A stretch of 34,555 bases of DNA from a virus: positions 1-34,555 of the IMG/VR virus record IMGVR_UViG_3300019093_000034; one strand, 5' to 3'. Below the pieces are notes generated by a model. The model was not told where the DNA came from. It saw only the letters and a list, made by a program, of their open reading frames with translations, and made no database searches. Shown here in pieces: positions 3,831 through 26,914 of the stretch; positions within the stretch are counted from its first letter, which is position 1; every line of letters starts with the position of its first letter. The position numbers and the translations under genes were made by a program.

Positions 3831-5209
3831 AATGCCTTGTCGTATACGCCTTCAAAACTTTTGCTCCAGGTGCCATTATTCCATTTGTACTGAACTCCGG
3901 TATATGAATTGGTTATGTAAATTATATCTGTTGCAGAGACCGAACTGAAAATAGTTGTCCATTTGCTACCATCCCACTCTATTATGTCATTGGCATACAG
4001 TTGAGTATCTATACCGTCGGCATTTTTCCAAGCGTCCGGACCGTCATATCCGGGATCGTTATAATGACTGTTGACATTGATATCTTCCAATATAAGATAT
4101 CTTGTACCTGCTCCGCACCCGGCGGGATTAAAAGTTTCTGGATTTACTATGGCATCAACGGTGCCTCTGCCTGAAATAACAGTGTTGGTAGGAATAGTGT
4201 CTGTGTCAATGCTCATTAACATTCTACGCTCGTCCGTTGGATCCAAACTTATATAGGCAACTATTTCTGTATTATCTTGTTTGGTTAATCTAAGTTGGCT
4301 AAGACTAGGACGAAAACTTCCAGGATACCGATCTAATATGGTTCTCCAGGAGTTTTGATAAGCAGGTACGGTGATATCTAAAATATCAGTTTGCCCATTA
4401 CGGGAAATCAGTGTAGCAGAATTGTCTAACACCAGTAGGTCATAATCTCCCGGGGTGACTACAACATTGGCCAGTGTGTCTCCCAACGATCCTAATACAG
4501 CATCGGCATTGCTGAGATCATCTCTAATAACTCCTTGATCTGTACTGAATGCTGTAGTGATAATTTTAGTAATAATACCCAACTTCTTGACCTTAACCGG
4601 CGGCGTAATCCAAACATGTGTATCAAAAACCATGTTTAAAATGTCTATATCTTGTTCTAAACCTTGGGGCACACTACGACTTGTGAATACTTGACTTTTA
4701 AGAGTCAACACACTGATACTGGTCCAGTCAATATAGTTGTCGGTAGTCTGTAATTCTAAACTGGGATTGAACAGCACAGAGATCTGTTCCCATAACTGTA
4801 ATTTTTGATCCGTGTTAGTAGTCCAAATGTCAGCAGCAAAATCTGCTAGATATGGAACTGGCATCATACGTTCTACAGTAAAATTGCTACCTTGTGTGTT
4901 GAGATATTGATTACCGTTGGCATCTATTGCACGTTCTCTTATATTTACAGTGTTGACAAAAGTAGGTTCCTGCATTCTAGCGCGATCATATTGTAAATCT
5001 TTAATATAGCAAGCAATAAACGGCGCACTGGGAATGGTATTTTCCGTGTTTTTCTTTAGTATTTGAGATACTTGTCGATTCATGTCTCCATATTTTACCG
5101 GAACGCGAGTTAATCGTCCTCGAGCATCCTTTACACTGAAGTTGCTCATTACGCGCATAAATTGTGTCAGGTATCTTTTGACCTGACCATCATAAAACCA
5201 ATCACTCAT
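3812..5209 (-). CDS. gp15: gp15-like tail sheath stabiliser / neck-tail completion protein
   Basis: The N-terminal 220 residues follow the T4 gp15 pattern: WFYDGQVKRYLTQFMRVMSNF, then TRVPVKYGD, PFIACYIKDLQYDRAR, VPYLADFAADIWTTNTDQKLQLWEQI, LFNPSLE and HVWITPPVK. gp15 forms the ring that caps the sheath and tube and binds the head-side neck. The protein is 465 aa while T4 gp15 is 272. The extra C-terminal part, about 240 residues, is beta-rich and includes two aromatic YxWDGxxW-type segments (DIIEWDGSKW, VQYKWNNGTW). It follows gp14 by one base and precedes Nudix with an overlap. Family assignment good; the extension has no known role. Confidence 0.8.
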   Translation of the reverse strand: MSDWFYDGQVKRYLTQFMRVMSNFSVKDARGRLTRVPVKYGDMNRQVSQILKKNTENTIPSAPFIACYIKDLQYDRARMQEPTFVNTVNIRERAIDANGNQYLNTQGSNFTVERMMPVPYLADFAADIWTTNTDQKLQLWEQISVLFNPSLELQTTDNYIDWTSISVLTLKSQVFTSRSVPQGLEQDIDILNMVFDTHVWITPPVKVKKLGIITKIITTAFSTDQGVIRDDLSNADAVLGSLGDTLANVVVTPGDYDLLVLDNSATLISRNGQTDILDITVPAYQNSWRTILDRYPGSFRPSLSQLRLTKQDNTEIVAYISLDPTDERRMLMSIDTDTIPTNTVISGRGTVDAIVNPETFNPAGCGAGTRYLILEDINVNSHYNDPGYDGPDAWKNADGIDTQLYANDIIEWDGSKWTTIFSSVSATDIIYITNSYTGVQYKWNNGTWSKSFEGVYDKALWRLVL

Positions 5210-5210
5210 A

Positions 5211-6416
5211 TTAGTTGTCTGCCTTAGGACGTAGTGCTTTACTTAATGCTTGTCTTTCAACCACAACTTCGCCATTGATAGTGGCTGTGTTGGTATTGTT
5301 AATAAATGACATTTTTTGTGTTTGACGTACCTGACGTCCAGCATAGGTACCACTGGCGGCATCTTGATTGCCTACATTAGTTAGTGTCATGCGTACATTG
5401 TCTTCAAATTTGATCCAATGTCTGCCATCATATCTATACAATCTGTTAGGCAAATAATCTGTACGAAGGAAAAATTGTCCTAATGTAGGAGTTGTAGGAA
5501 ATGAAATACCAAACCCATAGGCCGCACCGTTGGGAGGAGTACCATCTCCTTGCAAATATCCCAAATAATAATTGTTGTTGGGTGTTTGCAGCACAACACT
5601 GGCATCTAATATCGATAATTCAGCGCTGGCATCAGCGTACTCTATGCTGGCATCACCGGTATTTTCTCTATCGTTTTCTCTTGTAGGAATAACGTATAAA
5701 TTTTTAGTATCAAAACCACTAGCCGGAGCGTCTTTTTCTGCTTCGGCAATAATTTGATCATTGATTTCTATACTGCGTTGATAAGTGCTGAGCAGATCCC
5801 GTAGAGTACTTCCATTTCCTGCCCCTGCATCACTATCAAGAATTTCCTTAAACTCTTGACTATCAACTAGAGGAACGCATTTAGCACGAAGCAAATGTGG
5901 ATACCAAGTTTGACTAAATCCTACAGACGGTCTGCTTACATCTTGTATAACATAAAATCTTTTTAATGCTATTAAACTGTCATCCAGAGCATACTCGTCT
6001 CGAAGATGGGGTAATTCTATCACATCACCGGGCATGACTTTTCTTTGAATGGTATCTACTGTACTGCGCAGATGAAAGTGAACCATGATGTTATCATTTT
6101 GCAAGAACAATCCAAACTGACTTAAATTAAAATCTAGGTCCTGCATAGTGTAGATGCAGCGCATAACATAGACATCAGGAGCATAATGCCTGTCTCTATT
6201 TTCCATAAAAATTAAATCTTGAATACCTAATTCTGGAATAGGATTGGTATTTACAGGAACCGCAGGAGTACTTTCACCATCTGCAGGATCTACCGGACCC
6301 AAATATTTGTGCAAATAAACATCAGTTCCGCCTACTTGAAATTCTTCATTGATGATTCTATCTAGAAATCGAAAATCTTTTCCTTTTTCTGGACGATATA
6401 AACTTAAACGTGGAAT
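5211..6416 (-). CDS. gp14: gp14-like neck protein, apparent ATT start
   Basis: The product contains ENRDRHYAPDVYVMRC, FNLSQFGLFLQNDNIMVHF, PGDVIELPHL and RFYVIQDVSRPSVGFSQTWYPHLLRAK, the pattern I recall for gp14 neck proteins of T4-like marine phages. A TTG at 6314 has no ribosome site. The frame continues upstream as clear coding sequence (KIPRLSLYRPEKGKDFRFLD) to an in-frame TGA close to the promoter. An AAGGAG at 6424-6429 (minus strand) lies 7 bases before ATT at 6416-6414, and no ATG, GTG or TTG precedes that codon in frame, so I take ATT as start (401 aa). The C-terminal part has LPNRLYRYDGRHWIKFED, a module also found in gp15 and the sheath. First gene of the gp14-gp15-Nudix operon. 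Confidence 0.72.
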   Translation of the reverse strand: MPRLSLYRPEKGKDFRFLDRIINEEFQVGGTDVYLHKYLGPVDPADGESTPAVPVNTNPIPELGIQDLIFMENRDRHYAPDVYVMRCIYTMQDLDFNLSQFGLFLQNDNIMVHFHLRSTVDTIQRKVMPGDVIELPHLRDEYALDDSLIALKRFYVIQDVSRPSVGFSQTWYPHLLRAKCVPLVDSQEFKEILDSDAGAGNGSTLRDLLSTYQRSIEINDQIIAEAEKDAPASGFDTKNLYVIPTRENDRENTGDASIEYADASAELSILDASVVLQTPNNNYYLGYLQGDGTPPNGAAYGFGISFPTTPTLGQFFLRTDYLPNRLYRYDGRHWIKFEDNVRMTLTNVGNQDAASGTYAGRQVRQTQKMSFINNTNTATINGEVVVERQALSKALRPKADN

Positions 6417-6446: not shown

Positions 6447-6454
6447 TATAAATA
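6447..6454 (+). promoter_or_regulatory. Late promoter TATAAATA for gp13
   Basis: Exact T4 late promoter consensus TATAAATA, with only 5 bases (ctcac) before the gp13 ATG at 6460. By T4 geometry (octamer at -13 to -6) transcription would begin at the A of ATG, giving a leaderless mRNA. No ribosome-binding site is visible. Confidence 0.75.
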
Positions 6455-6459
6455 CTCAC

Positions 6460-8337: not shown

Positions 8338-10818
8338 ATGGCAACACTACAATCACCGGGCGTACAGGTAAATGTTATCGACGAAAGTTTTTATAACCCT
8401 ACCGCTCCTGGAACCACACCAATTATTTTTGTAGCAACAGCGCAGGATAAAACCAATCCTGGTGGCGGAATTGCACAAGGAACAACCGCTGCTAATAACG
8501 GCAAAGTATGGATCATAACCAGTCAACGAGATTTGGTAGATACATTTGGCAGTCCTGAATTTTATGTTGATAATCAAGGCAATTCAGTTCACGGCAGCGA
8601 ATTAAACGAATATGGATTACAAGCCGCTTATAGTTTATTGGGTGTTAGTTCCAGAGCATATATTGCCAGAGCAGATGTTGATTTAGGTCAATTGGTTGCC
8701 GATACAAGCATTCCTACCGGATCGCCAAAAGCCGGATCTTATTGGACAGACAGCAACGACAGTTTATACGGTGTGTTCGAATGGGATGCAACTGCAAAGA
8801 ACGGTGTAGGAGCATTTGTCGCCAAAACTCCTAAAATTATCGATGACACCAATGTAGCAACTGTTGCAGATACTAATTTAATACCTATAACAGGCGGGTT
8901 AAACGAACAGGCAGGCGATTATGCCATGGTAGTTACTTCCGACAACCAAAATGCATTATGGTACAGAACAACCAGTACATGGGTAGCAGTAGGTAGTACC
9001 GGGTGGACTGCTATTGCCAACACAACTACCACAAAAACACTACAAATAAGTCCTCACACTGACTATCCTAATTTTACTGCGTCTACTCCAACTGGCAGTG
9101 TATGGGTTAAAACAACCACACCCGGACGTGGCGCAAATTGGGCTGTGAAATACTATAGTGGTTCTACACAGACTTGGAATACCGTATCTGCTCCTATCTA
9201 TGCCAGCACTCCCGAAGCCCTACAAAAATTAGATTCAACTGGTGGAAAAAACATTCCGGTAGGAACACTCTTTATCGAAACCGACTACAATCATGGGGTT
9301 AGAAAAGAAGCCACATTTAAAATTTATAGACGTGTTGCCTCTGGCTTAACAGTTGCTTCCTCTAGTGCTGGATCGGTAACTACCAGCAGTACAGTTACTC
9401 AAAACTTTAGCATTAGAGCAACCGTTCCTGGTAGCAGTGCATGGAGTAGCTCGGCTACCATTACTGTTTCTGCATGGAACACTACTACCACTACCAGCAT
9501 TGCCGAAAGAATTCCAGCAGCAGTTAGTGGACGTTTAACTAATGTGGTTGCCAGTTACAACGAAACAACTAAAAAAGTTACATTTACACATTTAACAGGT
9601 GGCGACATTGAACTAAAAGATGGAACTGATACTCCATTATCAAAGATCAACTTTACTACTGCGTCGGCTAATGTTTATGCCGCTCCGACCGGACACAATT
9701 TTGATTTTCTAGTTTCTAACTGGAAGCCACTGCAAAATACTACAAATGCACCGTACGGAGCCCAACCCAATGCTCTTTACACATTGCCTGCTAATGGCAC
9801 ATTATGGTACGATGCGCGACTACAAGATGTAGATATCATGGTTCACGACGGTACTGGGTGGGTTGGTTATCTAACAGCATACCCTGCAACCAATCCTGCT
9901 GGTCCTATCATTGGTGCATTAGAGCCAGTTGACGGCGATCGGTCTGACAAAGGCAGTTTGGTTACCGGAGATATTTGGATTAGTACAGCAGATGCTGATC
10001 AATATGGTAAAAAAGTCTACGTATATAATGGAATAACCTCTACCTGGGATCTACAAAACACCGCGGACAACAATAGTCCTGATGGATGGGTGTTTGCCAA
10101 TGCTCGTTGGTCAGACAATGGTGTTGATGGTCCTGAATATGTAACTCCAATTACTGATTTATTGGTCAGTGACTATGTTGATCCTGATGCGCCCAATCCT
10201 GCACTATATCCAAAAGGTATTAGATTATGGAATCTACGCAGAAGTGGATTTGTAATTAAGAAATACATTCAAGGTGCAATTGATAAAACCGCACTTAATG
10301 TTAGATTCAATGATGAAAGTATGGAAGGGTACAACGCCAATCGTTGGAGTTGCGTCAGCGGAACTAACCAGGACGGTAGTGGAGTTTTTGGTCGTCTAGC
10401 ACAGAGAAGGTTTGTTGTTAGCGGATTGAAATCTTTTATTGACACCAACACTGCAATCAGAGATACAGACACATTGATATTCAATCTAATTGCCACTCCT
10501 GGGTATCCTGAAGCCATAGTTAATATGGTTGCTTTCAATACCGAAATTGGTCAAACAGCATTTGTTGTCGGCGATGCTCCTTTTAGATTGCAGCCAAATG
10601 CCACTGATCTAACGGCATGGGGAATGAATACCGCCAATGCCTACGACAACGGTGATGCAGGATTGGTAACACACAATGAATATCTAGGTGTTTTCTATCC
10701 CAGTGGTTATACCACAGACAACAAAGGTAAGAATATTGTTGTGCCGGCTAGCCACATGATGTTACGCACTATTATCAATAGTGATGCCAAGAGTTATCAA
10801 TGGTTTGCACCAGCATGA
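8338..10818 (+). CDS. gp18: Tail sheath protein gp18, main part up to an in-frame TGA
   Basis: Begins MATLQSPGVQVNVIDES, the standard sheath opening, with AGGAG upstream. Sheath features include EYGLQAAYSLLGVSSRAYIARADVDL and, near the end, FIDTNTAIRDTDTLIFNLIATPGYPEAI. The reading stops at TGA 10816-10818 right after SYQWFAPA, where family members continue AGTRRG. Downstream, the same frame carries the rest of the sheath. The middle (roughly residues 115-620) is a large beta-rich insertion made of repeated GxxW...YxxxxxxW segments, so the full-length protein would be about 1002 aa against 659 in T4. The sheath contracts around the tube to drive DNA injection. Identity is firm; the stop makes this copy either defective or dependent on read-through. 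Confidence 0.93.
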   Translation: MATLQSPGVQVNVIDESFYNPTAPGTTPIIFVATAQDKTNPGGGIAQGTTAANNGKVWIITSQRDLVDTFGSPEFYVDNQGNSVHGSELNEYGLQAAYSLLGVSSRAYIARADVDLGQLVADTSIPTGSPKAGSYWTDSNDSLYGVFEWDATAKNGVGAFVAKTPKIIDDTNVATVADTNLIPITGGLNEQAGDYAMVVTSDNQNALWYRTTSTWVAVGSTGWTAIANTTTTKTLQISPHTDYPNFTASTPTGSVWVKTTTPGRGANWAVKYYSGSTQTWNTVSAPIYASTPEALQKLDSTGGKNIPVGTLFIETDYNHGVRKEATFKIYRRVASGLTVASSSAGSVTTSSTVTQNFSIRATVPGSSAWSSSATITVSAWNTTTTTSIAERIPAAVSGRLTNVVASYNETTKKVTFTHLTGGDIELKDGTDTPLSKINFTTASANVYAAPTGHNFDFLVSNWKPLQNTTNAPYGAQPNALYTLPANGTLWYDARLQDVDIMVHDGTGWVGYLTAYPATNPAGPIIGALEPVDGDRSDKGSLVTGDIWISTADADQYGKKVYVYNGITSTWDLQNTADNNSPDGWVFANARWSDNGVDGPEYVTPITDLLVSDYVDPDAPNPALYPKGIRLWNLRRSGFVIKKYIQGAIDKTALNVRFNDESMEGYNANRWSCVSGTNQDGSGVFGRLAQRRFVVSGLKSFIDTNTAIRDTDTLIFNLIATPGYPEAIVNMVAFNTEIGQTAFVVGDAPFRLQPNATDLTAWGMNTANAYDNGDAGLVTHNEYLGVFYPSGYTTDNKGKNIVVPASHMMLRTIINSDAKSYQWFAPA

Positions 10819-10835
10819 ACACGCCGGGGCGGCGT
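10816..10835 (+). other. In-frame TGA followed by GC-rich hairpin in sheath gene
   Basis: TGA (10816-10818) is followed after two bases by ACGCC (10821-10825), loop GGGGC, and GGCGT (10831-10835), a perfect 5-bp GC-rich stem in an otherwise AT-leaning gene. Such a stem directly 3' of a stop can favour read-through. Alternatively it merely reflects the Arg-Arg-Gly-Gly codons used here. Confidence 0.5.
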
Positions 10836-11346
10836 TGACAATGCTTCATCCGTAGGATACATCGATGGCGAGGGCGAATTTAAAACCACAGCATTACATC
10901 AAGCATTACGTGATATTCTGCAAAATGATACCAATAATATTGCAATTAATCCCATAGCAACGTTGCCCGGGATTGGATTGGTCAATTATGGACAAAAGAC
11001 ACGTGCCAAGAACGCCAGTGCGCTGGATCGTATCAATGTAGTAAGATTAGTTGCTTATCTACGTAGACAATTGGCTATGTTAGCTAAACCGTTCTTGTTT
11101 GAACCAAACGATACTCAAACAAGAAGAGAGCTTAAATCCGCTACGGAAAATCTCCTAATCGAATTGGTTGGACAACGTGCTCTATATGATTTTATCGTAG
11201 TATGCGACACAACTAATAATACTCCAGCACGTATTGATCGTAGTGAATTGTATATGGACATTGCTGTAGAACCAGTTAAAGCAGTAGAGTTTATCTATAT
11301 TCCTCTGCGTATTAAAAACACTGGCGATATTGCAGCCGGCAGATAA
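10819..11346 (+). CDS. gp18: C-terminal part of tail sheath gp18 downstream of the in-frame TGA
   Basis: The frame runs on without shift from the TGA as TRRGGVDNASSVGYID, then INPIATLPGIGLVNYGQKTRA, SALDRINVVRLVAYLRRQL, AKPFLFEPND, LYDFIVVCDTTNNTPARIDR and AVEFIYIPLRIKNTGDI. This is the conserved sheath C-terminal domain that forms the inner layer and the linking arm to neighbouring subunits. There is no good start of its own: the only in-frame candidate is a TTG at 10963, inside the conserved domain, without a ribosome site. I read this as the rest of one sheath gene, so an independent protein is unlikely. Confidence 0.85.
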   Translation, partial: TRRGGVDNASSVGYIDGEGEFKTTALHQALRDILQNDTNNIAINPIATLPGIGLVNYGQKTRAKNASALDRINVVRLVAYLRRQLAMLAKPFLFEPNDTQTRRELKSATENLLIELVGQRALYDFIVVCDTTNNTPARIDRSELYMDIAVEPVKAVEFIYIPLRIKNTGDIAAGR

Positions 11347-11348
11347 TA

Positions 11349-11356
11349 GGTAAATA
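11349..11356 (+). promoter_or_regulatory. Late-promoter-like GGTAAATA upstream of tail tube gene
   Basis: GGTAAATA contains the TAAATA core and lies 22 bases before the gp19 ATG, with AAAGGAG in between. It would give the abundant tube protein its own transcript with a normal leader. Confidence 0.45.
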
Positions 11357-11378
11357 CAAAGAATAAAGGAGCATATAG

Positions 11379-12014
11379 ATGCCAATCGCAAGTTTAAATA
11401 GATTTACAGTACCATTATCAACAAACCAGAGTAGTAATACTCAAGGTTTGTTAATGCCTAAATTAAGATATCGCTTTCGTGTTACCTTAGACGGGTTTGG
11501 TGTAGCTGGTACTCCTAGCACAGAAATGACTAAACAGGTTATGAATGTATCCAGACCACAGGTTACATTTGAAGAGATCAAGTTGAATGTCTACAACAGT
11601 ACAGTTAAACTAGCAGGACGTCACAGTTTTACCGATGCCAAGTTGGTACTACGCGATGATGTTACAGGTGCGGTGTCTAGAAAGGTTGGCGAACAACTAC
11701 AGAAACAATTTGATTTCTATGAGCAAAGCGGTGCAGCATCTGGTATTGACTACAAGTTTAGAATGCGTGTAGAAATTACCGACGGTGGCAACGGCGCCTA
11801 TGAACCGACCAGTTTGGAAAGTTTTGAATTTTTAGGTTGTTTTGTTAAGATGGCAGAATACCAGGGCGGCGATTATAGCAATAATGAACCAATGGATATT
11901 ACACTAACGATCACTTATGATAACGCAATCCAACTAAATCGTCCAGGTGGCGATCGTACTGGATTAGGAGTCGATGTTGGACGTACCGTCCGTACATTGG
12001 CATTAGGCGGTTAA
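11379..12014 (+). CDS. gp19: Tail tube protein gp19
   Basis: 211 aa. The sequence MPIASLNRFTVPLSTNQSS, GLLMPKLRYRFRVTLDGFGV, TKQVMNVSRPQVTFEEI, AGRHSF, QKQFDFYEQSGAASGIDYKFRMRVEITDGG, YEPTSLESFEFLGCFV and DITLTITYDNAIQ matches gp19 tubes of T4-like marine phages throughout. It polymerises into the inner tube through which DNA passes. It has AAAGGAG seven bases before the ATG. It follows the sheath, as in T4, and is closed by a strong terminator, which fits separate high-level expression. Confidence 0.93.
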   Translation: MPIASLNRFTVPLSTNQSSNTQGLLMPKLRYRFRVTLDGFGVAGTPSTEMTKQVMNVSRPQVTFEEIKLNVYNSTVKLAGRHSFTDAKLVLRDDVTGAVSRKVGEQLQKQFDFYEQSGAASGIDYKFRMRVEITDGGNGAYEPTSLESFEFLGCFVKMAEYQGGDYSNNEPMDITLTITYDNAIQLNRPGGDRTGLGVDVGRTVRTLALGG

Positions 12015-12033
12015 TACAATTTCAACTAGCTAC

Positions 12034-12061
12034 AAGCCCGAGATTATCTCGGGCTTTTTTT
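12034..12061 (+). terminator. Rho-independent terminator after tail tube gene
   Basis: Perfect 10-bp stem: AAGCCCGAGA (12034-12043), loop TTA, TCTCGGGCTT (12047-12056), ending in a run of seven T. The next gene restarts with its own late promoter. Confidence 0.92.
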
Positions 12062-12065
12062 AACC

Positions 12066-12073
12066 AATAAATA
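12066..12073 (+). promoter_or_regulatory. Late promoter AATAAATA, 5 bases before ATG
   Basis: AATAAATA, spacer tcagt, then ATG at 12079. No ribosome site. T4 spacing predicts transcription starting on the A of ATG. Confidence 0.7.
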
Positions 12074-12078
12074 TCAGT

Positions 12079-13179
12079 ATGAGTAATGCTTTTTCAAATT
12101 TTTTAAGTGGGGTAGCATCGGGTATATTGGGCAAAAGCGACGGTGATCTCAGAGATTATCAACATGCCGATAGACTTTATGTAAAGAATAACTACGCTCG
12201 TGCTCCTAAAGCAGGATTTTTGTATTTTATTGATTTTGATATTAATCCAGATGCAATTCCGGATAAAACTTATAGAGAAAAAGGCCTTAAAGATGTTGGT
12301 TTATTGGTAAAGCGTGCCGAACTTCCTAAATTTAAAATCAGTACCGAAACCCTTAATCAATATAATAGAAAAACCGTTGTACAGACTAAAATAACCTACT
12401 CTTCTGTTAATATAGATTTCCATGACGATAATAGCGATATTACAACTAATCTTTGGAAAAATTATTACAACTATTATTATATGGATGGAGTATATGGACA
12501 GGTCAAGGAAGGACTTGTACCCGAATTTGCTGATACAAAATTTGGTACAAAAGATTATTCTTATGGTTTAGACAATTTTCAAAATCAACCATTCTTTAAC
12601 AGCATAAACATTTATGTACTGCATCAACGTAAATTTACACAATTTATTTTAATTAACCCAAAAATATCTGACTGGACACATGATACATTGGATCAGGGTG
12701 AATCTAATAAAGTTTTAGGAAACAAAATGACATTGGACTATGAAGGTGTATCATATAAACAAGGAAAAATTGTTAGAAATAAACAGCCACATGGGTGGCT
12801 TCCGGTCTATTATGATAATACTCCGAGTCCATTGAGAACCGGTGCCGGCGGACTACTGGGTGCTATAGCAGGTGCTGATGCTATTTTTGGAGAGGATGGA
12901 TCGTTGGCTAATGCAAAAACCCCATTGGACTATTTAGGAGTAGCATTACAGTCTAGAGATCTTTATAAAAATGTCAGACAACTTACCAAAGGCGGATTAC
13001 GTCAAGAAGGTTACAGTATACTATCCGGTGTATTAGGAAATATAGCATCAACAGGTAATCAACCTGGGGGTGTTAGAGATGATATTAATCGCGGAATCAA
13101 TATGATAATCCCTAGCTCACAGAATAGTGTTAGCCCTAGCACCCTAGCTAAACAGGTAGTACCAGGAAGCGGTCAATAA
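12079..13179 (+). CDS. Tail-tube-fold structural protein, possibly tube initiator
   Basis: A 366-aa protein directly after the tube gene. It has LYFIDFDINPDAI, DVGLLVKRAELPKFKISTETL and a YNRKTVVQTKITYSSVNIDFHDD segment, then INIYVLHQRKFTQFILINPKISDWTHD and NKMTLDYEGVSY. This order of a strand pair, a fitted loop and a late YEGV strand resembles tube-fold proteins (gp19, gp48, gp54). The C-terminal 120 residues are low-complexity Gly/Ala/Ser-rich. It may be a gp54-like tube initiator or a minor tube or baseplate protein. It is expressed from its own late promoter and its stop (13177-13179) shares one base with the next ATG. Fold inferred; identity with gp54 not established. Confidence 0.65.
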   Translation: MSNAFSNFLSGVASGILGKSDGDLRDYQHADRLYVKNNYARAPKAGFLYFIDFDINPDAIPDKTYREKGLKDVGLLVKRAELPKFKISTETLNQYNRKTVVQTKITYSSVNIDFHDDNSDITTNLWKNYYNYYYMDGVYGQVKEGLVPEFADTKFGTKDYSYGLDNFQNQPFFNSINIYVLHQRKFTQFILINPKISDWTHDTLDQGESNKVLGNKMTLDYEGVSYKQGKIVRNKQPHGWLPVYYDNTPSPLRTGAGGLLGAIAGADAIFGEDGSLANAKTPLDYLGVALQSRDLYKNVRQLTKGGLRQEGYSILSGVLGNIASTGNQPGGVRDDINRGINMIIPSSQNSVSPSTLAKQVVPGSGQ

Positions 13180-13553
13180 TGAACAACGTCTATACCAACT
13201 TACCTCCTAAAAATACAAACAATCAAAATTCTACACTATTGGCATTTGATACTTACTATACAAAACCTTTAGAAGTAGATGTTGCAACATTTGATATTAT
13301 GCGAGCATTTTTTACCAGCAGAGGATTTGAAAGGGAATCTGCTGAATCGGTTTCTATTGCTATTTTTAAACAGGCTAAACAAGACGGATATAACCCTTTA
13401 CAAATATTAGATACTTTAAAAGGTCTAGATAATGTTGAAATAAGTGCGCTGGTAGCAGAAATTGTAAATTATAATCGATTAAAAACTAGTTTCTTAGGTT
13501 ATGGATTAGCATTTCAGCCCAACATGGAAATTTCTAGAAATATTATGCCATGA
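13179..13553 (+). CDS. Conserved phage protein, putative virion or assembly protein (124 aa)
   Basis: The start codon shares a base with the stop of the tube-like gene, and the TGA stop overlaps the gp4 ATG (ATGA at 13550-13553). The product has a disordered Asn/Pro N-terminus, then FDTYYTKPLEVDVATFDIM, FFTSRGFERESAESVSIAIFKQAKQDGYNPLQILDTLKGLD and VAEIVNYNRLKTSFLGYGLAF. I recall similar proteins as conserved unknowns in T4-like marine phages. The mainly helical fold and position between tail and head-completion genes suggest a structural or assembly role. Function unknown. Confidence 0.65.
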   Translation: MNNVYTNLPPKNTNNQNSTLLAFDTYYTKPLEVDVATFDIMRAFFTSRGFERESAESVSIAIFKQAKQDGYNPLQILDTLKGLDNVEISALVAEIVNYNRLKTSFLGYGLAFQPNMEISRNIMP

Positions 13554-13996
13554 GCATGAAATTTGCTCAAGGAATATTTACACCTAAAAATCCTGAAAAA
13601 TATGCCGGGTCTCGGCTACCATACTGTCGCAGCAGTTGGGAAACTACTTTCTGTATGTTTTGCGACAACAATCCAGCAGTACAACAATGGGCTAGCGAAC
13701 CCGTAAAAATACCTTATCGTGATCCCTTAACCGGTAAACAAACTGTTTATGTTCCGGATTTTTTAATATCCTATATAGATCGTAATCAAAAGAAACATGT
13801 AGAAATGGTAGAGATTAAACCAGCCAATCAAATGTTAAAAGAACGTGTAGGAAAGAATCCTTATAACCAAGCACAGTTTGTTAAAAATCAAGCAAAATGG
13901 GCTGCTGCCTCGGCCTGGTGCCAGCAACAAGGTATAAAATTTAGGGTAATCAATGAGCACGACCTTTTTGTCAGTTCTGGAAATAAAAAGAGATAA
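13550..13996 (+). CDS. gp4: Head completion protein gp4-like (nuclease fold)
   Basis: The 148-aa product has FAQGIFTPKNPEKYAGS, YCRSSWETTFCMFCDNNPAVQQWASEPVKIPY, VPDFLISY and VEMVEIKPANQ, ending QAKWAAASAWCQQQGIKFRVINEHDL. This is the gp4 (gp50/65) head completion family, whose PD-(D/E)xK-like core is seen as E in RSSWE, PDF and EIK. gp4 acts on the filled head before tail joining. The start overlaps the preceding gene by ATGA; a second ATG two codons later is possible. Confidence 0.85.
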   Translation: MSMKFAQGIFTPKNPEKYAGSRLPYCRSSWETTFCMFCDNNPAVQQWASEPVKIPYRDPLTGKQTVYVPDFLISYIDRNQKKHVEMVEIKPANQMLKERVGKNPYNQAQFVKNQAKWAAASAWCQQQGIKFRVINEHDLFVSSGNKKR

Positions 13997-14004
13997 TTAA
14001 AATT

Positions 14005-14484
14005 ATGACTAAAAGATTAGAAGAAATTTTGAACATCGAACCCGATAATACACCTTATATGGATCCCAAGGATGTTAAACCAATTGAAACTCCGGTAATC
14101 AGCCTGGAAGATCGACTGGAAGAATTTGACAAAATCGCTGCTGCACTGCCCAGGGTCAAAGGACTAGGCGATATCAGCGACGCCGAACTAGACGGGTTGG
14201 CAGGCAAAGCAGAACAGGCCTATGATGACTTAATGGATCTAGGAATGAATGTGGATCCGCGATTTGGCGCTAGAATGTTTGAAGTAGCAGCACAAATGAT
14301 GAATGCTGCCATCACTGCCAAGACCAACAAGATTGATAAAAAACTAAAGATGGTGGATCTACAGTTGAAAAAACTGGCCATAGAAAAAAAGCATGGCGGG
14401 GAAAGTGCTACTGTAGAGGGCGAGGGCTATATTTTAACCGATCGTAACAGCATCTTGGAAAAACTTAAGAATCTGAATAAATAA
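14005..14484 (+). CDS. gp16: Terminase small subunit gp16-like
   Basis: 159 aa. A disordered Pro/Glu-rich N-terminus is followed by helical DLMDLGMNVDPRFGARMFEVAAQMMNAAITAKTNKIDKKLKMVDLQLKKLAIEKK, matching the coiled-coil core of gp16 proteins (helical hairpin, AKTxKIxKKLKMxDLQLKK). gp16 oligomerises and stimulates gp17 in packaging. The gp17 gene is 1.9 kb further on, separated by two extra genes, unlike T4, where 16 and 17 overlap. Confidence 0.85.
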   Translation: MTKRLEEILNIEPDNTPYMDPKDVKPIETPVISLEDRLEEFDKIAAALPRVKGLGDISDAELDGLAGKAEQAYDDLMDLGMNVDPRFGARMFEVAAQMMNAAITAKTNKIDKKLKMVDLQLKKLAIEKKHGGESATVEGEGYILTDRNSILEKLKNLNK

Positions 14485-14488
14485 TATT

Positions 14489-15082
14489 ATGTCTAAATCA
14501 TTCAAAGCCTATCTTTCTGAAAGCAAAAAGCAGTACGATTTCCGGGTCAAAATCGCCGGTGATATCACTCCCGACCAAGAAGATCAACTAAAGTCACTAT
14601 TAGGTAGATATCAACTGATCAGTTTTAAGAAGACAGCTAAAACTCCTATTCAAGAACTACCATTGGATTTCCCTAGTATTAAAAATACCGAAGTTAATAT
14701 CTACGATATCACACTGGACTATCCTACTACACAGCAGGAACTCTCAGAATACCTTGCTACTGAGTTAGGTGTAGGTAAGCCTAGATTGGTAGTGCGTCGT
14801 CCGGGAGAGCCCAGTGAAGAATATCAAGTACCGGCAGAACCACGTGAAGGCGCACTGTTAGATGATCCTGATTATAAAGAAGCAGGAAATGCCCAGTTCG
14901 AAGACTATTACGGCGACAAATATAACAGTGGGTTTGTCAAAGAATTAAACGATATACTAAAATTACAACGCAGGGCCCGTGGTGAAGAAATACCCACTAC
15001 TGAATCAGCCAAATTCAATACAGATACCGAAGAAAAACAGCCCAGTATCTTAAAATTTCAGGCACAAGATCTAAGGAAATAA
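14489..15082 (+). CDS. Putative virion-associated protein of unknown function (197 aa)
   Basis: Starts MSKSFKAYLSESKKQYDFRVKIAGDI; a short FxxYLxE helix at the N-terminus is frequent in T4-like head-associated proteins. A ferredoxin-like pattern follows (FRVKIAGD...VNIYDITLDYPTTQQELSEYLATEL), then an acidic linker and a C-terminal VKELNDILKLQRRARG helix similar to helices in the flanking large proteins. It lies 4 bases after gp16 and 2 bases before the next gene, so they are coexpressed. No family recognised. Confidence 0.6.
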   Translation: MSKSFKAYLSESKKQYDFRVKIAGDITPDQEDQLKSLLGRYQLISFKKTAKTPIQELPLDFPSIKNTEVNIYDITLDYPTTQQELSEYLATELGVGKPRLVVRRPGEPSEEYQVPAEPREGALLDDPDYKEAGNAQFEDYYGDKYNSGFVKELNDILKLQRRARGEEIPTTESAKFNTDTEEKQPSILKFQAQDLRK

Positions 15083-15084
15083 TC

Positions 15085-16329
15085 ATGCAGATGATCGATG
15101 TATTAAAAAGACTAGCAGAATTGGATTCCGCTAATCCTAATGTAATTCGCGAAGGACAGGGTAGCCCTGAACTACAACAATTACTAGCCATGCAACAGCA
15201 ACATCGTGGCGGACGATACGAACAGCAACTAAACAAACGAGTTGCTGATCAACAGTGGAGAGAAGCCAACGGTAAAGGCGTTCCTGTTGATGCCTCCGGT
15301 CGCCCTGTTCCTGTGTTGAGCCCAGAGGAATTTGAAAAAAAGAATCCCAATTATCTTAAACCCAGTGCTGCGCCCGGCACCGACTACCAGAATACGTTGA
15401 GAGAAAACCTAGATTTAGCAGAGTGCGGAATGATGCCTATGCCAGGAATGGGCGGACAATCGCATACACCGGCCAGTATTTCCATGACAGCCAGCAGCGG
15501 TCCAGAACTCAGTGGCATGCTAGCAGATATTATGAAACTAGCAGGTGTTCATAAAGTTGAACCGGCCCACTTGGGAATTGAACCAGCACATGACCATAGC
15601 GACATTGAAGTGATCTCCGCAGAACCTACACCATTAGACGGCGGTGACGAAACTGAAATCATGCGCAGTATGATGGATCGTATGAACGGTGAGATGGACA
15701 GCGAGGAAGAAACAGACGAGGGCATGTATGACAATAGCCCCAATAGTCCCGAGCCTCAACAATCATTTGATGCCAATGAATTTGCTCATCGTGAGAATCA
15801 ACCTGGCCAAGGTGATCGTATGGATGGCAACATGCCCCGAGCATTTGCTACCATGGAAGAGCGACTAATGTCAGAGTGGAAACAGTTTGTGACTGAAAGC
15901 CACCATCACCATCGTGCGATTTCAGTTAATGGTAAAGAAGTTGATACTGACTCACTAGAAATAGATGGTATCGATATGCGAGATGCTCCAGATTTTGTAG
16001 ACGCATATTTTAGTGACGGTCAGTTTATGGATGGCACACCATTGAGCCAAGATGAATTAGATTATCTAGGAGATCACCATGGTGAATTGCTTTACGATAA
16101 GATTCAAAATCGGTTATATGAAAGCAGTCAGAATGTAGCGGAGGGTGACAGCGGAGCAAAATACCGTGTCAAATCAGTTGGTAATGATGTTAACCCAGCA
16201 ACTGATGAAAGATGTGATTACTATATTAATCCTGTAACTGACAAAAAAGTTTACTGTAAGCCTGGACAAAAAGTCAGCAAAGGCGACCATGTAAACCCTA
16301 CCACAGGCAAAGTTACACCTAAAGTTTAA
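15085..16329 (+). CDS. Large acidic phage protein, probable head or internal structural protein (414 aa)
   Basis: Starts MQMIDVLKRLAELDSANPN, behind AAGGAAAT. It is rich in Met, Gly, Pro, Gln and acidic residues and mostly disordered, with a Met/Gly-rich stretch GMMPMPGMGGQ, a SGPELSGMLADIMKLAGVHKVEP helix, an EEERLMSEWKQF-type helix, and a compact C-terminal basic domain (CDYYINPVTDKKVYCKPGQKV) with two Cys. The MLADIMKLAGV element recurs as ENILKLAGLK at the end of the 654-aa protein downstream. Position between the two terminase genes and the strong terminator after it suggest a late virion gene. Function unknown. Confidence 0.6.
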   Translation: MQMIDVLKRLAELDSANPNVIREGQGSPELQQLLAMQQQHRGGRYEQQLNKRVADQQWREANGKGVPVDASGRPVPVLSPEEFEKKNPNYLKPSAAPGTDYQNTLRENLDLAECGMMPMPGMGGQSHTPASISMTASSGPELSGMLADIMKLAGVHKVEPAHLGIEPAHDHSDIEVISAEPTPLDGGDETEIMRSMMDRMNGEMDSEEETDEGMYDNSPNSPEPQQSFDANEFAHRENQPGQGDRMDGNMPRAFATMEERLMSEWKQFVTESHHHHRAISVNGKEVDTDSLEIDGIDMRDAPDFVDAYFSDGQFMDGTPLSQDELDYLGDHHGELLYDKIQNRLYESSQNVAEGDSGAKYRVKSVGNDVNPATDERCDYYINPVTDKKVYCKPGQKVSKGDHVNPTTGKVTPKV

Positions 16330-24277: not shown

Positions 24278-25719
24278 TAATCAAAGACGAAGTCAATGTT
24301 AAGATTGAAAATCTTGATCTCGACACTCGCAAAGCACTGGTTAAAAAATTCAAATATGAGGACCCTAGTGCCCGTTTTCGCCCCAGTTATCGCCTGGGTA
24401 GGTGGGATGGCAGCATCAGTTTCTTTGGACTGGGCGGAACCACCTATATGAGCATGTTGCCCCAGGTATTGGAGTATCTAGAAGGTAGAAACTTCTATAT
24501 TGAACTAGAAGATCACCGCAATCCTATCAATCTAGATTTCGAGTCAATTGACACTGATTTTTGGGGTGATTTGACCTGGCCAACAGGACATCGTTTTGCT
24601 GGACAACCTATTAGATTACGCGAAGATCAAGTTGATGTTATCAACATGTTTCTCAAACACCCGCAGTGTATTCAAGAAATTGCCACCGGTTTTGGTAAAA
24701 CCATTACCACTGCAACACTGAGCAAAATCTGTGAAAAATTCGGTCGTACAATTACTGTGGTTCCTAACAAAAGTCTAGTGGAACAGACCGAAGAAGATTT
24801 CATCAATTGCCAATTAGACGTAGGAGTCTATTACGGAGACAGAAAAGATCTGGATCGAACTCACACAATTTGTACTTGGCAAAGTCTCAATATTTTAGAC
24901 AAAAATAGCAAGAATTATGACGAACTTGCCTCGGCTCGATTAGAAGAACTATTAGACAATGTTCAAACTGTTATGGTAGACGAAGTACACATGGCCAAGG
25001 CCGATGTGTTGAAAAACCTACTGACTCGCAACTTGTCCCAAACTCCGATCAGGTGGGGGTTGACCGGAACTATCCCCAAGGCCGAGCACGAATTTCAGGC
25101 CATCAAAGCCAGTCTAGGGGAAGTGGTAAATCGTGTTCAGGCACATACTCTGCAGGAGTCCGGCGTATTGAGTCAATGTCATGTAAATATTGTTCAGACT
25201 GCCGAATGGAAAGAATTTCGTAGCTATCAAGAAGAATTAAAATACCTGGTCTGCGATGAAGTCAGAATGACTTATATTGCTGGATTAATCAGTCGTATTG
25301 CTGAATCTGGTAATACACTGATTCTAGTAGACCGAATTGAAAGTGGTAAGTTTTTAGTTGAAAATTTACCAGATAGTGTTTTTGTATCCGGCGAAGTCAA
25401 AACAAAAAACAGGAAAGAACACTATGACGAAATTAAAACTGCCGACAATAAAATTATCGTGGCCACTTATGGCGTTGCTGCCGTCGGCATTAATATTCCC
25501 AGGATTTTTAATTTGGTCTTGCTGGAACCAGGAAAAAGTTTTGTGCGAGTTATTCAAAGCATTGGACGAGGAATTAGAAAAGCCGACGACAAAGACTTTG
25601 TACAGATCTGGGACATAACGGCCGCAGCCAAATATGCAAAACGACATCTCACAGATCGAAAACGTTTCTACAAAGAAGCACACTACCCCTTTACCATAGA
25701 AAAAGTCAAATACCAATGA
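24259..25719 (+). CDS. uvsW: UvsW-like ATP-dependent DNA helicase
   Basis: 486 aa superfamily 2 helicase: N-terminal domain with FKYEDPSARFRPSYRLGRWDGSISFF as in UvsW, Q-motif-like RLREDQ (119-124), Walker A ATGFGKT (142-148), DEVH (241-244), motif III LTGTIP, motif V VATYGVAAVGINIP, and motif VI QSIGRGIRK. UvsW rewinds and branch-migrates forks and R-loops and switches T4 from origin- to recombination-dependent replication. It overlaps the HARP-like gene by 19 bases, and its stop overlaps the next ATG (ATGA at 25716-25719). Confidence 0.95.
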   Translation: MASCKVIIKDEVNVKIENLDLDTRKALVKKFKYEDPSARFRPSYRLGRWDGSISFFGLGGTTYMSMLPQVLEYLEGRNFYIELEDHRNPINLDFESIDTDFWGDLTWPTGHRFAGQPIRLREDQVDVINMFLKHPQCIQEIATGFGKTITTATLSKICEKFGRTITVVPNKSLVEQTEEDFINCQLDVGVYYGDRKDLDRTHTICTWQSLNILDKNSKNYDELASARLEELLDNVQTVMVDEVHMAKADVLKNLLTRNLSQTPIRWGLTGTIPKAEHEFQAIKASLGEVVNRVQAHTLQESGVLSQCHVNIVQTAEWKEFRSYQEELKYLVCDEVRMTYIAGLISRIAESGNTLILVDRIESGKFLVENLPDSVFVSGEVKTKNRKEHYDEIKTADNKIIVATYGVAAVGINIPRIFNLVLLEPGKSFVRVIQSIGRGIRKADDKDFVQIWDITAAAKYAKRHLTDRKRFYKEAHYPFTIEKVKYQ

Positions 25720-26219
25720 GAATATTAACACTTGATAACGAATTGTTCAGCCTTAACGATCTACCCGACGAAATTGAAGAAGATCTACGATTTGCGGTGC
25801 TAGACAACAGCGATAGCAGCAATCCTGATCATTTTTTCATTCCCTTAATCTTTTTGGAAAGTTTCACAGGTCCGGCTGTGGTATTGAAGATTGGAGATCA
25901 TGAATTAACCATGCCACTGGATTGGTGTACAATTGTAGGGGATCCCGAAGGACCGGAAATGGAAGTACTGCCATTGACCAGTTTGAACGATCGAGGATTT
26001 CAAACATTTTGTTTTAATCCATTAGGCAGTTATAGACCAGAATTTCTTGATATTGATATCATTGATGTTTATCAAGATGTCAAATGGTATTTTCCCAAGA
26101 TGAAACCGGGACAACTACTGTGTACTCCGCTGCATGAAGGTCCCAATCCTGCCTGTGCTTATTTCGTCAAAGAAGTCAGTCGTCAAAGCGAACTGGTCAG
26201 TTATTCAGCCTGCTGGTAA
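25716..26219 (+). CDS. Conserved phage protein downstream of uvsW (167 aa)
   Basis: ATGA overlap with uvsW. The product has ILTLDNELFSLNDLPDEI, HFFIPLIFLESFTGPAVVLKIGDHELTMPLDW, LTSLNDRGFQTFCFNPLGSYRPEFLDIDIIDVY and VKWYFPKMKPGQLLCTPL. I recall close relatives as conserved unknown proteins of T4-like cyanophages in the same place. The beta-rich, strongly conserved fold suggests an essential core function, but none is known to me. Confidence 0.8.
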   Translation: MRILTLDNELFSLNDLPDEIEEDLRFAVLDNSDSSNPDHFFIPLIFLESFTGPAVVLKIGDHELTMPLDWCTIVGDPEGPEMEVLPLTSLNDRGFQTFCFNPLGSYRPEFLDIDIIDVYQDVKWYFPKMKPGQLLCTPLHEGPNPACAYFVKEVSRQSELVSYSACW

Positions 26220-26223
26220 AACT

Positions 26224-26469
26224 ATGACCTACGTATACGAAAGCCCGGATAACGGCGATACTGTATATCGAAGAAAAATTGGCGATCCAGAACGAGAAAA
26301 ACATTTGGTGAGTGAACGAAGGAAAGACTTACTCAACGAAATAAGAGAAAGTCAGTTGTGGGGTGATATTCATCGTGCAGCACTAACCAATCCTGCTTTA
26401 CAAGAAGCCCTGGACCGTGTTAAAGTAATATACTACTTGAGTAAAGAAAATGGCCGCAGCAAAACTTGA
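26224..26469 (+). CDS. Conserved small phage protein (81 aa)
   Basis: Starts at ATG 26224, four bases after the previous stop; an in-frame start 90 bases earlier would lie inside the previous gene. The product has YVYESPDNGDTVYRRKIGDPERE, then basic helices (ERRKDLLNEIRESQLWGDIHRAALTNPALQEALDRV). It overlaps the next gene by 20 bases. Similar short proteins with YESPDxGxTVYRR occur in T4-like marine phages from memory. Function unknown. Confidence 0.75.
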   Translation: MTYVYESPDNGDTVYRRKIGDPEREKHLVSERRKDLLNEIRESQLWGDIHRAALTNPALQEALDRVKVIYYLSKENGRSKT

Positions 26470-26914
26470 TATCAAACGCGAACTGGCAGCGGTAGACACG
26501 AGAAATTATGATTTCTATGATAACCTCACCTCTGAGGAAAAGAAAGCATTCAGCCCGTATATACTAATGCGTTATGTATCAAATACCACAGGCGATCGAG
26601 ATATACAGGAGTGGTATTTAGAAAACACCAACGAGTTTGTCAATAAAAATCATTGGACATTGAGTAAAAATCACAAGGCGCTGTTGTGGAAATTGTTTGC
26701 CGCAACCGGGGGCGGATCTCCGACATATCATCCCTACATGGCAGCGGGTAAAAAGGAAAAAGTTAACAAATTTGAAAATCTACTGGCAGAAACATACCCT
26801 GCTAAAAAGATCGAAGATATTAAATTGCTGGCCAGTTTAATGACCGCAGAGGACCGACAAGAACTGTTTGATAATCTAGGGTTTGATCGTAAACAACGCA
26901 AAGAGTATGAGTGA
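26450..26914 (+). CDS. Putative sliding-clamp loader small subunit (gp62-like)
   Basis: 154-aa helical protein: YDNLTSEEKKAFSPYILMRYVSN, WYLENTNEFVNKNHWTLSKNHKALLWKLF, KKEKVNKFENLLAETYPAKKIEDIKLLASLMTAEDRQEL. The N-terminal FSPYILMRYVS pattern followed by HxxLLWKL resembles the short gp62 clamp-loader subunits of T4-like marine phages. gp62 with gp44 loads the gp45 clamp, but neither gp44 nor gp45 is in this window. It overlaps genes on both sides (20 and 8 bases). Moderate to weak confidence in the specific function. Confidence 0.55.
   Translation: MAAAKLDIKRELAAVDTRNYDFYDNLTSEEKKAFSPYILMRYVSNTTGDRDIQEWYLENTNEFVNKNHWTLSKNHKALLWKLFAATGGGSPTYHPYMAAGKKEKVNKFENLLAETYPAKKIEDIKLLASLMTAEDRQELFDNLGFDRKQRKEYE

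Follow-up and report, generated by a model that had tools for sequence, protein, structure and literature searches.

An in-frame TGA at an invariant glycine codon of a jumbo phage tail sheath gene is probably a single-base consensus error

The tail sheath gene in the stretch of DNA analysed here, a 34.6 kb virus record referred to as the window, is interrupted by an in-frame TGA, which we consider to be probably a single-base consensus error, introduced when this metagenomic contig of a jumbo myophage was sequenced or assembled. The G-to-T change that creates the stop is confined to this record, and elsewhere the gene shows the usual constraint. The true genome would most likely carry a glycine codon at position 827, like its relatives, and a single full-length sheath of 1,002 residues would be made; the TGA is most likely not a new route to two sheath lengths.

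When the gene is translated with TGA as X, an uninterrupted sheath of 1,002 codons results, which is closed by a TAA and in which X827 is the single internal stop (Table 1). The first-pass annotation had described an in-frame TGA without frameshift, flanked by SYQWFAPA-X-TRRGGVDNA, and the frame is indeed unbroken on both sides. In PHROGs, both the part before the stop and the part spanning and following it match the tail sheath family phrog_10581 (E 4.6e-127 and 3.8e-93, respectively), and the C-terminal domain PF17482 lies 3' of the TGA (residues 894-992, E 1.5e-15). With a sheath profile across the gene, C-terminal domain included, the product belongs to the T4-type tail sheaths. It resembles the gp18 family (phrog_10581, PF17482) in sequence, in its C-terminal domain and in the invariant glycine of WxxPAGxxRG, but differs from T4 gp18 in its length (about 1,002 vs. 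659 residues, the extra length preceding the C-terminal region) and in that this copy contains an in-frame TGA.

Table 1. Positions of the features discussed, in the window and in other sheath-carrying contigs.
Feature	Position	Strand	Basis
Tail sheath gene, 1,002 codons, one internal TGA	8338..11346	+	phrog_10581 tail sheath; PF17482 residues 894-992
Open frame as read: truncated sheath, 826 residues, ending at TGA	8338..10818	+	
In-frame TGA at invariant glycine codon 827	10816..10818	+	GGN in relatives
Conserved motif YQWFAPA-x-TRRGG around the stop	10795..10833	+	relatives' sequences
175 codons after the stop, purifying selection	10819..11343	+	dN/dS 0.078 vs L084; only synonymous differences vs L398
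Phage_sheath_1C C-terminal domain (PF17482), missing from the truncated product	11017..11313	+	profile match
L112 sheath, in-frame TAA near contig end	L112:21-23 (sheath strand)		
L043 sheath, in-frame TAG	L043:1190-1192 (sheath strand)		
L080 sheath, frameshift	near 326-329 (sheath strand)		
L064 sheath, frameshift	near 4921 (sheath strand)		

Among annotated DNA, the nearest matches come from RaK2-like Klebsiella jumbo phages and are their sheath genes. The neighbours of the sheath gene in the window include genes for a sheath stabiliser, tail tube, head closure, terminase, UvsX and a helicase. As in T4-type contractile tails, the gene adjoining the sheath matches a tail tube family. Two adjacent genes at 11379-12014 and 12079-13179 (+) match the tail tube families phrog_4542 and phrog_13438, which suggests a duplicated or extended tube protein. 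Elsewhere in the window, overlapping small frames occupy 26134-26450 (+), between 25716-26219 and 26450-26914, and the gene model there is uncertain.

An alignment of the sheath genes of close relatives at codon 827, as the first-pass annotation had called for, gave GGN throughout. When viral DNA was scanned with a degenerate pattern for YQWFAPA-x-TR that allowed any codon at x, at least 119 loci were retrieved, and among the matches listed, not counting the two copies of the window itself, 119 of 119 carry GGN (73 GGT, 23 GGA, 22 GGC and 1 GGG). The same holds for all 80 of the nearest relatives in a similarity-ranked protein search, whose best 80 loci lie on contigs partly shared with the pattern-scan set. 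Closest among these is L398, with 95.2% identity over 6,090 bp (9850-15927) and 99.2% protein identity over the searched part, which has GGA at codon 827 within flanking DNA identical to that of the window. GGA is also present in L084/L399, L069/L402 and other near relatives, and it was correctly noted at the outset that the TGA stands exactly at a glycine codon, one base from GGA. When L399 is used for polarisation, the G-to-T change maps to the tip branch that leads to the window. Two targeted scans of viral contigs for TRR at this codon, a strict one and a more permissive one, gave no other case, with the proviso that such scans may omit records closely resembling the window; bacterial genome contigs scanned for the sheath motif gave no match. 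All 111 distinct sheaths that were aligned have this glycine, and it recurs in solved gp18-type sheath structures (approximately residue 493 in 9mkb, WMSPAGYNRG). The first-pass annotation had named, as what would speak against it, relatives that all have a glycine codon together with a single low-coverage base in this record; the part concerning the relatives is what we find.

The 175 codons past the TGA had been described as free of decay, and this is borne out by the substitution pattern. Compared with L084, dN/dS amounts to 0.154 over codons 1-600, 0.132 over codons 601-826 and 0.078 over codons 828-1002, and compared with L398 the last segment shows four synonymous changes, one of them on the window branch, and no amino-acid change. 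Taken together, the low dN/dS and the exclusively synonymous differences indicate that the stop, if it is real at all, arose extremely recently.

Besides that of the window, 4 of the 119 sheath genes among the matches listed are broken (approximately 3%; Table 1), which is close to a published benchmark in which about 3% of the protein sequences from 10x Illumina metagenome contigs contained single-base errors (PMC3277595). The lesion in the window consequently lies within the background. Like the spurious interruptions known from genes of metagenomic contigs, it is a solitary base change in a gene that is conserved elsewhere, its frequency fits both the other contigs of the set and the benchmark, and it is private to one record and absent from close relatives; from this we infer that it belongs to the same class. 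Further broken genes would have suggested an error-rich contig, but no second in-frame stop or frameshift was found in the genes compared with relatives, at about 2.2-25 kb; profile searches alone covered the fibre-like gene (1-2043) and the region of 25.7-34.5 kb. The contig is thus not obviously error-rich, which counts against a consensus error, and a lone substitution that happens to create a stop is also compatible with a real mutation. In favour of a consensus error stand the glycine codon in all relatives listed, including L398, the lack of another TRR in the scans, the purely synonymous differences after the stop and the other broken sheaths. Isolated in-frame stops or frameshifts in otherwise intact genes of metagenomic phage contigs amount here to a few percent per long gene, and a comparison with close relatives should precede any proposal of recoding or read-through.

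Among the three options originally offered, sequencing or assembly error and a fresh nonsense mutation are both supported by the evidence, which speaks against regulated read-through. A recent genuine nonsense mutation, carried by some or most of the viruses sampled, would truncate the sheath at residue 826 and make the affected genomes defective, except where they are rescued by a host suppressor or a co-infecting intact phage. From our point of view this is possible but rather unlikely. One G-to-T substitution along the tip branch would suffice, and the lack of decay after the stop is to be expected of a very young lesion. The truncated product would end at about residue 492 in T4-type gp18 numbering and thus lack domain IV altogether and domain III in part. 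Since residues 1-510 of T4 gp18, a longer fragment, do not polymerise (PMC3004832), the mutation would probably be null. The sheath of a different phage still self-assembles undisturbed when as many as about 100 residues are removed from its C-terminus (PMC6357053), compared with 176 that are lost here. A null mutation in an essential virion gene should, however, not reach the consensus of an assembled population, and the similar breakage rate in the other contigs (again among the matches listed) points to a technical cause, although some of those lesions may be real. Regulated or constitutive UGA read-through, in which translation would mostly stop after 826 residues and sometimes continue, yielding a short and a long sheath, is very improbable, even though the tail sheath is an abundant structural protein and the frame is open and conserved past the stop. 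The stop occurs in this record alone, with no counterpart at codon 827 in the relatives listed or in the 95%-identical L398, and it lies on an invariant glycine within the conserved WFAPAGTRRG motif instead of at a domain boundary; insertion of the near-cognate Trp, Arg or Cys would therefore alter an invariant residue. Moreover, the short product would be devoid of the C-terminal sheath domain. A downstream hairpin, as suggested by the GC-rich ACGCCGGGGCGGCGT, was considered and rejected, as the RNA shows no unusual fold (z = -0.21, 65 nt) and the DNA following the stop is identical in relatives with GGA. Neither a stop conserved among the relatives compared nor a stimulatory downstream RNA structure, as programmed read-through would have, is thus present, and the regulated read-through that the first-pass annotation offered as an option is very unlikely. 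A literature search on read-through in tail sheath genes returned nothing apparently relevant as judged by titles and abstracts. The window, which is only a fragment, holds no tRNA gene, and a suppressor could conceivably be encoded by the rest of the phage genome or by the host; that a newly arisen leaky UGA and host UGA suppression would give a minor full-length sheath next to the truncated form has, in our estimation, only a very faint chance of being correct.

A change of the genetic code would fit a TGA that stands exactly at a glycine codon: in code 25, used by Gracilibacteria, Absconditabacteria and some of their phages, TGA is read as glycine. The window shares with stop-codon recoded phages (TAG=Q, TGA=W, or TGA=G in code 25) an in-frame stop in a late structural gene, but in contrast to them it holds one such codon, uses TGA as a normal terminator and has no suppressor tRNA in the fragment. 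Code-25 phages are described as dense in in-frame TGA (PMC10746230), whereas one true case was found here in about 10,400 codons that include 681 GGN glycine codons. In agreement with the initial reading, 11 of the 35 window genes end in TGA, several of them in ATGA overlaps. The earlier judgement that a general TGA-to-glycine code is unlikely is upheld by these codon counts and terminators, which rule out code 25 or another general recoding of TGA to the extent that we regard its probability as practically negligible. A second in-frame TGA that had been counted, at 6456-6458 (-), lies upstream of the conserved N-terminus of a phrog_11591 gene and hence outside that gene.

Two further observations concern gene starts in the window. 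In the phrog_11591 virion structural protein gene, at 5211-6416 (-), the conserved N-terminus PRLSLYRPEKG begins at an ATT (6416-6414), which is preceded by AAGGAGAACTAAA, a strong Shine-Dalgarno sequence, in the context AAGGAGAACTAAA-ATT-CC. No ATG, GTG or TTG lies between the upstream stop and this ATT in the window, and the gene apparently starts at AUU. The same arrangement occurs in 118 viral contigs. Among 254 homologous starts, many of which were fetched by an ATT-containing pattern, a Shine-Dalgarno-like motif is present at 138 of 138 ATT starts and absent at 104 of 111 ATG starts; 89 of these 104 have an octamer resembling the T4 late promoter directly upstream. In the similarity-ranked set, which provides a fairer count, the motif accompanies all 15 ATT starts and 2 TTG starts and is lacking at 61 of 62 ATG starts. 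These sequence patterns point to a conserved and possibly regulated AUU start in this phage structural gene.

Octamers resembling the T4 late promoter (NATAAATA) are also found at 6447, 12066, 14476, 17974 and 30759 (+), where the ATG of a gene follows after 12-13 nt. In the related loci as a whole, the distance from ATAAATA-type octamers to ATGs that open a gene peaks sharply at 13 nt, with control octamers being flat, and in the nearest set a second peak is seen at 15 nt. As the T4 late promoter element is located at about -13 to -6, the 13 nt peak suggests that late mRNAs in this group of jumbo phages may be leaderless.
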